This document shows, piece after piece, positions 5,935 through 9,430 of a stretch of 44,453 nucleotides of DNA (positions are counted from its first letter, which is position 1; every line of letters starts with the position of its first letter). Origin of the DNA: Paracoccaceae bacterium (GTDB taxonomy: Bacteria > Pseudomonadota > Alphaproteobacteria > Rhodobacterales > Rhodobacteraceae); assembly GCA_030950185.1 (NCBI GenBank), contig JAUZRU010000011.1:1-44453 (forward strand), in the 5' to 3' direction. Below the pieces are notes generated by a model. That model searched no databases. It saw only the letters and a program-made list of their open reading frames with translations, and was not told where the DNA came from. The position numbers were made by a program, and so were the translations under genes.

Positions 5935-6846
5935 ATGGACGGGCTGGAGTTCGTTGACGGCATCATACTGATGTGGTTTTCCCTGACCGCCCTGTCGGTT
6001 CTGTTCGTTGCTATCGATATTCGGAACACCCCCGAAGACCCCGTGCTCAAATGGGGTTTTATCCTGCTTACAGCCTATATCGGGCCGTTCGGCGTGTTCC
6101 TTTATGTATTCGGCTGTCGCGAGCCGCTTCCGGGGTTGCACGAAAAATATATCGCGACCCGCTGGCGGCAGGTTCTGGGCTCGACCATGCACTGCGTTGC
6201 CGGCGACGGAATCGGAATTCTGGCCGGTGCCATCATCGGCGCCGTCATCCAACTGAGCGGGCTGTGGGAAATCCTGCTGGAATATGTGCTGGGCTTCGGT
6301 TTTGGCTGGGCGATTTTTCAGGCCCTTGCGATGAAGGCGATGCTTGGTTCCTACAAACAGGCGCTGGCAAAAACCTTTTACGCCGAGCTGGTTTCGATGA
6401 ACTGGCTGATGGCGGGCATGATGCCGACAATGATGATCCTGATGCGCACTATCGAAGGGGCGGAAGACCCGACTTCACACCGGTTCTGGTTCGTGATGTC
6501 GATGTCGCTTCTGGTCGGGTTCATTGCGGCCTATCCGATCAACTGGTGGCTGGTGTCGCGTGGCCTGAAACATGGCATGATGACGGTGCGCCCGCACGAA
6601 AGCATGATCGGAATGGACACCGACATGCCCATGGATACGACACCGCATCAGGCAGGCGCGCAGCCAGCATCTGCGCAGGAGCACAGCAAACATTCGGGAA
6701 ATCACAAGCCCGAGGATCAGGGCCCTTCCGGTATCATACCTTCGACTATTACACCTTCGACCACACGGATGCTGGGTATCGCCGCCATATCCTTTGGCGC
6801 CCTTGCCACGGGCATCACCTTCGGGATGAGCATGGCGTTGCACTGA
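5935..6846 (+). CDS. DUF4396 domain membrane protein
   Basis: A 303-residue inner-membrane protein. Two N-terminal membrane helices (about 8-55) are followed by the conserved DUF4396 core with THFY-like patterns, here STMHCVAGDGIGILAGAIIGA and SYKQALAKTFYAELVSMNWLMAGMMPTM (about 85-180). A further helix pair and a last C-terminal helix (about 278-300) follow. Between them lies a hydrophilic Met/His-rich linker (roughly 215-260: HESMIGMDTDMPMDTTPHQ, then more His), the sort of composition seen in copper- or silver-handling proteins. The family function is unknown. ATG 5935 has AAAGG upstream; a GTG at 5923 is the alternative. Confidence 0.8.
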   Translation: MDGLEFVDGIILMWFSLTALSVLFVAIDIRNTPEDPVLKWGFILLTAYIGPFGVFLYVFGCREPLPGLHEKYIATRWRQVLGSTMHCVAGDGIGILAGAIIGAVIQLSGLWEILLEYVLGFGFGWAIFQALAMKAMLGSYKQALAKTFYAELVSMNWLMAGMMPTMMILMRTIEGAEDPTSHRFWFVMSMSLLVGFIAAYPINWWLVSRGLKHGMMTVRPHESMIGMDTDMPMDTTPHQAGAQPASAQEHSKHSGNHKPEDQGPSGIIPSTITPSTTRMLGIAAISFGALATGITFGMSMALH

Positions 6847-7344: not shown

Positions 7345-7539
7345 TCAGTCGTCACCGCCGCCATTGTCGTCGTAGTCGGTGAAATCCTGGTCTTCCATCT
7401 TGTTCAGCCTGCTCCGCTTTTGGCGAAGCTTGCGATATTCGGGGTTGTCTTTCATCCGCCTGGCATTCTTTTCCGCCGAGTATGCGAAAAATACCAGAAA
7501 CAGCACAAACAGGGCGACGAATATCGCAAAGCCTATCAA
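7345..7539 (-). CDS. Small single-span membrane protein between bolA and grxD
   Basis: A 64-residue protein with one hydrophobic helix (about 2-22, [20 protein letters not shown]), then a basic helix ([21 protein letters not shown]) and an acidic tail ending DDNGGGDD. The likely topology is N-out/C-in by the positive-inside rule. The start is a TTG whose bases overlap the bolA stop (TTGA), implying translational coupling. It is 44 bp upstream of grxD. I do not recognise a named family. The position inside the bolA-grxD unit argues that it is expressed and may have a role in the same pathway. Confidence 0.7.
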
Positions 7540-7778
7540 TCAGGGGCCCGTGTCGTCAGCGCAAGCGCATGCAGGTCGCCATCTGTGCCATCCATCTTGC
7601 CCTTGAGGGCGGCATAGACCGCCCGCTGCTGCTGCACGCGGTTCTTGCCCTTGAAGCTGGCATCGATGACTTCGGCGGCATAGTGGCGCCCGTCGCCGGC
7701 AAGATCGGTGATGGTGATCTTTGCTTCCGGGAAAGCCTCGCGGATCAGGCTTTCGATTTCTGCGGCATCAATGGCCAT
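7536..7778 (-). CDS. BolA family protein (BolA2/IbaG-like)
   Basis: An 80-residue BolA-fold protein. The signature GDGRHYAAEVID at about 28-39 supplies the conserved histidine that can ligate the Fe-S cluster shared with CGFS glutaredoxins. It is followed by FKGKNRVQQQRAVYAALKGKM and LHALALTT. The short length and the VQQQRxVYxAL pattern place it with BolA2/IbaG rather than classic BolA1. The start ATG 7778 gives the normal N terminus. It is first in the bolA-membrane protein-grxD unit. Confidence 0.93.
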   Translation of the reverse strand: MAIDAAEIESLIREAFPEAKITITDLAGDGRHYAAEVIDASFKGKNRVQQQRAVYAALKGKMDGTDGDLHALALTTRAPD

Positions 7779-7847
7779 GCTTGTTCCCCCTTTTGAATCG
7801 AACAGTGATGTACGCCCCCATCCCCCCCGGCGCAAGGGGTGCGATGT

Positions 7848-8045
7848 CTAGGGCCTGTTGACAATCCCCAAATCGCACCGGTTTCAGCCCAAATCCACCA
7901 GTGCCAGCCAATTTTGCGCAGACAGGGTGGCCCCCTTTCAAGCGAAATTTGCGCCGCAATGGTGGATTTTGGCGAAATCCCGCAGGGACGCGGCGCAAAT
8001 TGCCCCCAGCGCCGGTGCGATCTGGAAATTGTCAACAGCCCCTAG
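7848..8045. mobile_element. MITE-like element with 34-bp terminal inverted repeats
   Basis: The ends 7848-7881 and 8012-8045 are inverted copies matching at 30 of 34 positions. Both begin CTAGGG and share CTGTTGACAAT and TCGCACCGG. The outer CTAG on each side could be a target duplication or part of the repeat. Inside is a second inverted pair, CCCAAATCCACCA (7888-7900) against TGGTGGATTTTGG (7960-7972; 12 of 13), plus several AAATTTGCGC-type segments in both orientations. The whole unit can fold into nested hairpins. There is no transposase frame. It lies between the bolA start and the livM end and breaks no gene. A non-autonomous transposon mobilised by an IS with similar ends is the likeliest explanation (inference). 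Confidence 0.75.
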
Positions 8046-8125
8046 TCGCTGCAAGAACAGGCGGCCCCGGATCGGTTGAAACGGGACCGCCTTGAATTGT
8101 TGCCCGTCAAATGACCGGCGTCGCG

Positions 8126-9430
8126 CTATTTTTCAGGTATCAGCCCCTTTGGACTGAACCTCAGCACAAGTAGCAGGATGATCCCCATGGTCAGCAGACG
8201 CATATGCGCAGCCGACTCGAGAAGATGTTTCTTCAGCCCGCTGTCGTCGGCCATCCACGCGGTCACGAAATCCAGCAGGTGCTTGCCCATCGGCTCGACC
8301 TCGACCCAGAGGAACCAGATCAGGAAGCCGCCAAGAACCGCGCCCCAGTTGTTGCCCGACCCGCCGACCACGACCATCACCCAGATCAGGAAGGTAAAGC
8401 GCAGCGGGTTATAGGTGCCCGGCGTGAACAGGCCGTCAAGCGAGGTCATCATCGCGCCGGCAATGCCAAGCACCGCCGAGCCAAGGATGAACACCTGCAA
8501 ATGGCGCCGGGTCACATCCTTGCCCATTGCCTCGGCGGCCTCTTCATTGTCGCGGATCGCCCGCATCATCCGGCCCCAGGGCGACCTGAGCGCCTTTTCC
8601 GACATCCACAGGATGATCAGCAGGACAACGGTAAACAGGGCAGCATAGATCAGCTTGACGAACCATGACGAAGCCTGGACGGGATCCAGCCCGAAGCTGG
8701 CGGCCCAGGATACGAACCACGGGTCGCCTTGCAGGTTGACCTCGTACATGAAGCTGAAGGGTCGCGGAATGCCGTTCACGTTCTTGACGCCACGGGCCAG
8801 CCAGTCTTCGTTCTTGATGACCGAGATGATGATCTCGGCGATCCCCAGCGTCGCGATGGCCAGATAGTCGGATCGCAGACCAAGAGAAATCTTGCCGATC
8901 ACCCAGGCCACACCGGCCGCAAGCAACCCGCCAACGCCCCAGGAAACCAGAACCGGCAGGCCCATGCCGCCCAGATAGCCGGTGCCGGCGGGATTCACGC
9001 GCTCGATTGCATCGACCGCCGGATCAAAGACATAGCGATACAGGAAGAACCCGCCAACCAGCACCACGATCATGGAAAGGTTGCGCTTGCGGCCCGGCGC
9101 CATGCGCTTCCATATCTGGCTGGCCGCAACGATCACCACAACCGCCAGCAGCAGCGCCAGAACGACACGCGCGCCCCCGGCGGCCCAGGCCTCGTGCACG
9201 GGGGGCATCGAGGTAATGACCGTCGCCAGCCCGCCCAACGCCACAAAGCCCATGGTGCCGACGGAAAACAGCCCGGCATAGCCCCACTGGATATTGACCC
9301 CCAGCGCCATGACGGCCGAGATCAGACACAGGTTCAGCAGCTGGAAGGCAACCGACCAGCTCTGGATATAGCCGACGACGACCAGCAGGCCGAAAACGAC
9401 GGCAAACAAAAGGATGTTGCGAATATTCAT
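8126..9430 (-). CDS. livM: Branched-chain amino acid-type ABC transporter permease, LivM-like
   Basis: A 434-residue inner-membrane permease of the HAAT (hydrophobic amino acid/amide uptake) family. An early NIQWGYAGLFSVGTMGFVALGG block is the LivM signature. The cytoplasmic loop SPWGRMMRAIRDNEEAAEAMGKDVTRRHLQVFILGSAVLGIAGA contacts the ATPases. The C terminus ends with RFSPKGLIPEK. It is longer than E. coli LivM partly because of an insert around residues 90-150. The last gene of the operon, it overlaps livH by 4 bp (ATGA). The substrate is probably a branched-chain amino acid or a related amide. Confidence 0.92.
   Translation of the reverse strand: MNIRNILLFAVVFGLLVVVGYIQSWSVAFQLLNLCLISAVMALGVNIQWGYAGLFSVGTMGFVALGGLATVITSMPPVHEAWAAGGARVVLALLLAVVVIVAASQIWKRMAPGRKRNLSMIVVLVGGFFLYRYVFDPAVDAIERVNPAGTGYLGGMGLPVLVSWGVGGLLAAGVAWVIGKISLGLRSDYLAIATLGIAEIIISVIKNEDWLARGVKNVNGIPRPFSFMYEVNLQGDPWFVSWAASFGLDPVQASSWFVKLIYAALFTVVLLIILWMSEKALRSPWGRMMRAIRDNEEAAEAMGKDVTRRHLQVFILGSAVLGIAGAMMTSLDGLFTPGTYNPLRFTFLIWVMVVVGGSGNNWGAVLGGFLIWFLWVEVEPMGKHLLDFVTAWMADDSGLKKHLLESAAHMRLLTMGIILLLVLRFSPKGLIPEK

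Follow-up and report, generated by a model that had tools for sequence, protein, structure and literature searches.

Repeat structure of the livM-bolA interval

The window analysed here is a stretch of 44,453 nucleotides (44 kb) from a Paracoccaceae genome assembly of 2.55 Mb in 167 contigs (G000). It contains a 198-bp element that lies 81 bp past the stop codon of a livM-like gene and 70 bp upstream of the start of bolA, assuming that bolA starts with the ATG at 7778. The earlier note had described the bolA and liv transcription units as convergent, but both genes are on the minus strand and co-directional, with the element after livM and before bolA. The features of the locus are as follows (positions are those of the window).

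7536..7778, minus strand: bolA (Pfam BolA)
7848..8045, no strand: whole element, a MITE copy in the YTAR context C-TA-[GGG...CCC]-TA-G (repeats, further copies, flanks)
7849..7850, no strand: left TA, target duplication by analogy with copy G012_b, for which precise empty sites exist
7851..7881, plus strand: left terminal inverted repeat and outer stem, its outer 14 bp an exact match to IS5-family ends
7880..7979, plus strand: arm 1, intact hairpin (positions 1-100 of covariance model R1, 38.6 bits, E 5.2e-7)
7978..7988, no strand: central mini-hairpin TCCCGCAGGGA (sequence and fold)
7989..8011, minus strand: remnant of arm 2, which has ~95 nt in full-length copies (fold and alignment to copies)
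8006..8012, no strand: junction of a 72-bp deletion, with a single CCAGCGC instead of the two, spaced by 72 bp, of copies C10 and C87 (alignment)
8012..8042, minus strand: right terminal inverted repeat and outer stem (repeat search, fold, IS-end comparison)
8043..8044, no strand: right TA, target duplication by the same analogy with copy G012_b
8126..9430, minus strand: livM-like branched-chain amino-acid permease gene

The inverted ends (7848-7881 and 8012-8045) are 34 nt long and 88% identical. The repeat search of the window gave the same count of 30 matching positions as the earlier note, and the best inverted pair of 34 nt within a 700-bp region reached 30/34, compared to 19-21 in 12 mononucleotide shuffles. 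The second inverted pair that had been noticed inside the element was also recovered (7880-7915/7945-7980, 36 nt, 72%), together with a shorter one (7946-7957/7990-8001, 12 nt, 100%). Folding of the 198 nt gave z = -8.9 for the plus strand and z = -10.2 for the minus strand, and none of 200 dinucleotide shuffles was equally stable on either strand. With up to three mismatches allowed, CTAGGGNCTGTTGACAAT matched the window twice (0.05 matches expected), both times at the element ends. Only short mechanical ORFs (64-96 aa) overlap the 198-bp element, of which full copies have 268-270 bp. Rfam models at gathering threshold had no match over 12 loci, and relaxed searches with two elements gave only weak matches below gathering score (seven of miRNA type and one mgtE).

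Dispersed copies, insertion sites and IS5-family ends

The earlier note had proposed to look for further copies in the genome and in related Rhodobacterales, and such copies were found in the own genome, in congeners and in another genus. The element is not a single copy that sits at the same locus in all relatives and lacks an empty site. In the own genome, it is present in C13 (the window copy), C87 (268 bp), C10 (268 bp, left end degenerate; both lengths count both TA positions) and C29 (one end degraded), and fragments occur elsewhere. C10 and C29 share the same right flank, are both near contig ends, and may represent one site split by the assembly. Altogether, 7 of 121 genomes, the own one included, matched the element. 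Five of these belong to the genus of the window (again counting the own genome, and one with a 47-bp fragment only), one is a one-contig genome from another genus with four copies, and one shows a weak match of 51 bp. Full-length copies (268-270 bp) were detected in two of nine congeners (three in G001, two in G009), and also in the own genome and the other genus. The plasmid and phage collections searched with the window-family element gave no match. Contigs end inside or just past the element, or an IS with its ends, in G001:C18, G007:C181, G004:C160, G000:C10 and G000:C29, and draft assemblies probably undercount the copies for this reason.

Comparison of the copies explains the length of the window element. 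The alignment of the window copy with C10 is gapless except for one 72-bp deletion. Two CCAGCGC repeats, at positions 159 and 231, lie exactly these 72 bp apart; the window copy retains one of them, and 270 - 72 = 198 is the length of the window element. The feature is an internally deleted MITE copy that has lost most of arm 2 between two 7-bp repeats.

Miniature relics were also seen in the own genome (G000:C163:943-963, C8:27708 and C85:4387; loci L076, L075 and L079), either as one end joined directly to the final bases of the opposite end (~35 bp) or as an end plus a short hairpin, for example CCGGATCGC-GCGATCCGG. A second, apparently unrelated dispersed repeat of ~230 bp directly adjoins one element copy (L044 1768-2017, G001:C34). 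It has many copies in the own genome (C91:12474-12695, C96:4347-4586, C30, C127) and occurs in G008; L044 contains no tRNA gene.

The predicted CTAG or TA target was supported by flanks and empty sites. TA is present at both ends in 31 of 37 copies from many bacteria (copy G000_C10, without left TA, belongs to a 38-copy set and was left out of this one). The preceding base is Y in 29 of these 31 and the following base R in 30; the TA was in the search pattern of this set, the outer Y and R were not. Left and right tetramers often differ (CTAG and CTAA in G012_a, for example), and the duplication is therefore TA and not YTAR. Precise empty sites for the full-length copy G012_b exist in two species of that genus (G297 and G298). 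They read AACTAGAGG and TACTAAAGG, versus AAC-TA-GGG...CCC-TA-AAGG in the filled site, and show that G012_b inserted at YTAR with TA duplication. At the window locus, the empty-site comparison shows absence only, as the bolA-livM interval of G001 is too diverged to define a duplication. The two flanks of copy G001_C34 match different contigs in congeners. The IS5 group proper, with its 4-bp target duplication, was considered and rejected, because the tetramers differ and the empty sites show TA only.

In several cases, the stop codon of a long ORF is the terminal TAG of a copy. Copy G012_b has an ORF of 213 aa to its left and one of 150 aa to its right; each stops at the terminal TAG of the element, and both frames end in the shared CTAR when they are carried onto the empty sites. 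At the 74 ends of the 37 copies, 18 ORFs of at least 150 aa reach the element, 12 in frame with the terminal TAG and 6 not (ORFs rather than family-checked genes were counted, and one of the 12, at G009_C103 right, may be antisense). Based on random frames, one would expect one third in frame (binomial probability ~0.004, hand calculation). For ORFs of at least 100 aa, the corresponding numbers are 15 and 10. The ORFs that end on the window copy are short (47 and 22 aa). YTAR is rare in the window, with 17 sites in 44 kb, two of them belonging to the element; the other 15 comprise three stop codons of naive gene calls, six sites in genes and six between genes. The simplest reason for the in-frame stops is that the YTAR target and the G-starting ends turn TA into TAG, and we do not claim a dedicated stop-codon sensor. 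As the element begins with G, TA plus G would re-make a TAG stop, and insertion into a TAA or TAG stop codon would do little harm. Target and ends thus offer a simple account of harmless insertion into stop codons.

The ends GGG(C/G)CTGTTGACGTTC also flank transposase genes. An IS with element-type ends, which the earlier note had suggested to search for, was indeed found, and the genes with the same ends are of the IS5 family. Paired element-type ends were detected for 12 IS (11 of 840-880 bp, one of 936 bp), and transposase remnants with such ends in G069, G009, G001 and G007. The IS5-family model NF033580 (cut-off 110) matched an intact 266-aa protein with 273 bits and the C-terminal half of another protein with 135 bits; an N-terminal fragment scored 56 bits, below the cut-off. 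All tested transposases match Pfam DUF4096 (PF13340) and/or DDE (PF01609). Two IS have one 266-aa frame and several have two overlapping frames (134 + 192 aa in L221).

The two overlapping frames of the IS5-family elements in L221, L119, L140, L121 and L125 may be due to decay or to a programmed frameshift, and stops are present in some matches to the second half of the transposase.

Among the matches listed by BLAST, the MITE shares only 14-26 bp of its ends with the 12 IS (14-18 bp with perfect or near-perfect identity, and a maximum of 26 bp with 88%). A Type I MITE, that is an internal deletion of its IS, was rejected, since only the ends match the 12 IS among these listed matches. An autonomous partner was not detected in the own genome, with no matches to the C-terminal half of the transposase (E<=1e-5) or to the N-terminal part (E<=1e-15). 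The C-terminal half matches 6 of 11 genomes (G001, G003, G005, G007, G008 and G012) with varying closeness, so that transposase relatives are present in five of nine congeners and in G012.

Together, the copies, the YTAR flanks, the empty sites and the shared ends support the earlier proposal of a non-autonomous transposon moved by an IS5-like transposase, and we infer that the element is moved in trans by an enzyme of this family. TA duplication and size, as tabulated for Paracoccus, would fit the IS427 group. A transposase supplied in trans would cut at GGG.../...CCC and join the ends at the TA of a YTAR site.

Local regulation of the bolA or liv genes by the 198-bp unit, as a structured RNA or double terminator, is hardly credible. 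The reading draws on the position of the unit, close to both genes, and on its strong fold. A scan of 7700-8200 yielded no intrinsic-terminator-like sites, so that the double terminator of the earlier note was not substantiated, and no sigma-70-like promoters. A relaxed Rfam search of 7400-8500 returned a single weak match (Cis52 sRNA, 19.1 bits versus gathering 56) outside the element. Other copies adjoin other ORFs. In G001, the best-matching congener at this place, bolA and livM are adjacent without the element. The other congeners with both genes matched have them on separate contigs or, in G003, ~19 kb apart, and in G007, G008 and G009 the two genes were not both matched. Since the copies are dispersed and the interval is empty in G001, local regulation is largely refuted. 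The structured nucleic acid that had been suggested as an alternative to a transposon holds as an added property of the mobile element, but not as its rival. Having only one whole arm, and with no cognate transposase found in its own genome, the window copy is probably a fixed relic whose effect upstream of bolA is perhaps incidental at most.

A twin-arm architecture in three proteobacterial classes

A scan of species genomes with the pattern TAGGG(C/G)CTGTTGAC(A/G)(A/T)T(C/T) identified at least 116 stretches. Inward-facing pairs of ends less than 600 bp apart numbered at least 35; among those listed, 15 pairs span 258-272 bp, 10 span 144-166 bp, 2 span 73-74 bp, and the other 8 span 223, 237, 301, 314, 322, 327, 479 and 579 bp. 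By BLAST (E<=1e-4), elements from Chromobacterium, from Halomonas/Vreelandella, from Hyphomicrobiales and from the window family form separate groups.

Alpha-, Beta- and Gammaproteobacteria (NCBI naming) provided 26 elements of 258-272 bp, the window family included. Of these, 23 adopt the same architecture on one or both strands; the exceptions are L162, L190 and L203. An outer stem of ~31-34 bp encloses a first arm of ~93-103 nt, a mini-hairpin of 7-13 nt and a second arm of ~94-100 nt. In the Beta- and Gammaproteobacteria groups, arm 1 aligns with the reverse complement of arm 2, so that the element is a mirror pair. Members of ~160 bp have one arm (L148, L231) and members of ~73 bp have none (L173, L256). 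Full window-family copies possess the outer stem, two mirror arms and the mini-hairpin (arms located with R1, filters off); the window copy has kept arm 1 and the mini-hairpin and lost most of arm 2. The lower half of the hairpin contains an asymmetric 2x3 loop in 20 of 34 arms and lacks it in 14; within the window family, this loop is found in 6 of 8 first-type arms and 0 of 8 second-type arms. These counts are not independent events, since the arms have a common ancestry and several of the Halomonas copies are nearly the same.

Other interiors were also observed. L153, L183 and L196 (Legionella/Legionellaceae, 159-164 bp) have the same ends around a different long hairpin, were not grouped by BLAST, and possibly represent the same transposon ends with other cargo. 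L182 and L239, from the same Betaproteobacteria MAG, have 322 and 301 bp and a longer first arm with extra hairpin blocks, which points to growth by insertion of hairpins.

The stems show extensive compensatory change. Double changes occur at 31 of 36 pairs in 12 arms, which come from six elements of Chromobacterium and Halomonas/Vreelandella; letters of the internal loop (5' side CRAGGC, 3' side AACG) are among the columns that do not vary. Over 32 hand-chosen arms (alignment A4; alignment A3 is without two opposite-strand rows), 90.1% of pair cells are paired, versus 60.5% when shuffled and 36.9-38.5% when slid, and double-change cells number 333 versus 99.

The covariance model R1 was built from the same 12 arms, with the window family left out. 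On six loci outside the training set and with filters off, 11 of 12 arms scored higher in the predicted orientation than on the other strand and one was tied, and the best scores were those of window-family arms, with 41.2 bits in L044 and 38.6 bits in L018. Arm 1 of the window copy ranks first for R1 in the 44 kb on both strands, at the score given above (filters off), and its opposite strand scores 17.8 bits. With default filters, R1 did not find the window-family arms. R1 scores near 30 are weak alone, because two hairpins used for training score 28.6 and 32.2 bits on their opposite strands, and it is the orientation preference that carries the argument. In the R1 alignment, the window arm keeps the core letters C25, A27, the G28-C73 pair, C30, G74 and G77, and is without A26, G29, A71 and A72.

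R1 matched at least 83 of 299 Pseudomonadota genomes and 37 of 153 genera, with three genomes of the window's class. These counts are lower bounds, as 13 candidates were scored per genome under stricter filters, under which G000 and G005 were not matched. Ten genomes of other phyla, chosen because one locus each carries the end pattern, gave no match, as a small and biased control without positive control. Of 30 loci fetched by R1, 22 have family ends on both sides (270-273 bp apart in 16), four on one side and four on neither. In the loci without family ends, the ends are altered, but the sequence still folds and its outer stem is paired. For 19 of the 30 loci (the first ones, length 267-285), 23-31 of the 31 outer-stem bases pair.

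Four matches are on plasmids, with no annotated feature under any of them (the gene table is incomplete). The element is carried by the plasmid pAcX50f of Azotobacter chroococcum and by a replicon of Halomonas sp. PA16-9, in both cases without a listed gene under it (the record of the latter lists only one feature in all). A phage collection searched with the G354 element (L331) gave no match. In L161 (Hyphomicrobiales MAG), an R1 match of 35.1 bits at 6182-6278 lies just outside the end pair 6309-6577 and has no family ends around it.

Sense arms are ~6 kcal/mol more stable than antisense arms in 55 of 58 arms outside the window family. Within it, sense is the more stable strand in 8 of 8 second-type and 2 of 8 first-type arms. 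As G.U and A.C counts outside the window family are close (116 versus 99), we do not read this stability as proof of an RNA role.

Known relatives and a possible role of the folded core

The observations define a multi-copy family with IS5-family (IS427-like) ends and a twin-arm architecture with extensive compensatory change that recurs in Alpha-, Beta- and Gammaproteobacteria. The window feature is, with high probability, a copy, deleted inside, of a ~270-bp MITE with such ends, YTAR/TA insertion and the twin-arm fold.

The element resembles the IS427 group of the IS5 family in terminal match and TA duplication. Its relatives of 840-880 bp carry an NF033580-type transposase in one frame or two overlapping ones; the element itself differs in its length of 270 bp, the lack of a transposase gene and an interior that is not IS-derived among the matches listed. 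The IS427-group elements shown for Paracoccus have 832-865 bp and 2-bp direct repeats, except for one with 4 (PMC3281130). MITEPsy1 of Pseudomonas syringae is likewise an IS5-type MITE with a similar target, CTAG/YTAA, but has 100 nt, a 4-nt duplication and the ends GGAAGGTCTGAAAAAGCC, and a twin-arm core is not mentioned in the parts of its description consulted (PMC3189936). MITEAba12, found across Moraxellaceae, is also IS-ended with identity to the IS confined to the ends, but is AT-rich, with 113 bp, a 9-bp duplication and the ends GGCTTTGTTGCACAAA, according to the sections of PMC6382973 compared here. The nearest published relatives that we found are intergenic repeat families of Pseudomonas fluorescens (R0, R2, R6 and others), with similar MITE-like inverted repeats, hairpins and Tail-repeat-Tail placement. 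They have 50-352 bp, none listed near 270 bp in the portions consulted; the comparison is by description only, and some family, such as R6 (177 bp, 34-bp inverted repeats), might be a one-arm form (PMC2718517). A MITE is a known kind of element; neither a ~270-bp twin-hairpin element with IS5 ends nor a twin-arm fold kept across three classes was found described in Rfam or in the literature searched. REP/REPIN elements are also dispersed intergenic palindromes mobilised in trans, by RAYT transposases. They are much shorter than the window family, depend on another transposase family and are not known to duplicate TA.

Recurrence in distant bacteria suggests that the shape of the hairpin core itself does a job, even though the purpose of the folded core is the least certain part of the explanation. 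The fold may be kept because a protein recognises one folded strand, most likely for the mobility of the element (the less certain part of this proposal). The strand could be extruded DNA, single-stranded DNA in replication or transfer, or a transcript. The mirror layout would give each strand one sense arm and so work in either orientation, which would suit a factor binding close to both ends, or one acting on the strand that happens to be exposed.

Two other accounts of the fold in an IS5-family MITE have to be weighed against recognition by a protein. Very long imperfect palindromes are classic substrates for templated correction. The elements are palindromes of this kind, and quasi-palindrome repair or template switching in replication, rather than selection for structure, would likewise yield double changes. 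Such repair should erase mismatched internal loops too, but in arms of the Beta/Gamma type the loop letters are among the most conserved columns, and the 2x3 loop recurs in the arms as counted above, first-type window-family arms included. Covarying stems with conserved letters in their loops speak against templated palindrome repair as the sole cause, an account that we consider rather unlikely. It is possible, if somewhat doubtful, that the fold acts mainly as RNA after insertion, as a bidirectional terminator, RNase III site or insulator for tail-to-tail genes that lowers the insertion cost. The long ORFs that end on the terminal TAG would fit such a role, as would the Tail-repeat-Tail bias reported in the parts of the Pseudomonas fluorescens study consulted (PMC2718517) and the greater stability of sense arms outside the window family and of the second type (arms that are not independent). 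However, the region around the window copy lacks terminator-like sites, this copy does not lie between convergent genes, and its own arm type is only rarely more stable in sense. The G.U and A.C counts give no clear strand-specific RNA signature outside the window family, and the YTAR target alone favours stop codons.

Structure recognition is used by attC sites and by IS200/IS605 ends. The interiors of MITEs are usually regarded as arbitrary, and the elements themselves as decayed transposons. Here, many members from three proteobacterial classes keep one interior and nearly one length despite divergence and hundreds of compensatory changes. We tentatively suggest a phylum-wide non-autonomous superfamily, with IS5-family ends and two ~100-nt hairpins in mirror arrangement whose internal loops are conserved, in which the folded nucleic acid, bound in folded form (as extruded DNA, ssDNA or RNA) by a transposase or a host factor, may be the unit of selection. 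If this is true, the satellite of a DDE transposon would use structure recognition like attC or IS200/IS605 ends, and the fold, not the sequence, would define the family. With this family, a functional folded core in a bacterial MITE becomes a case that can be tested.
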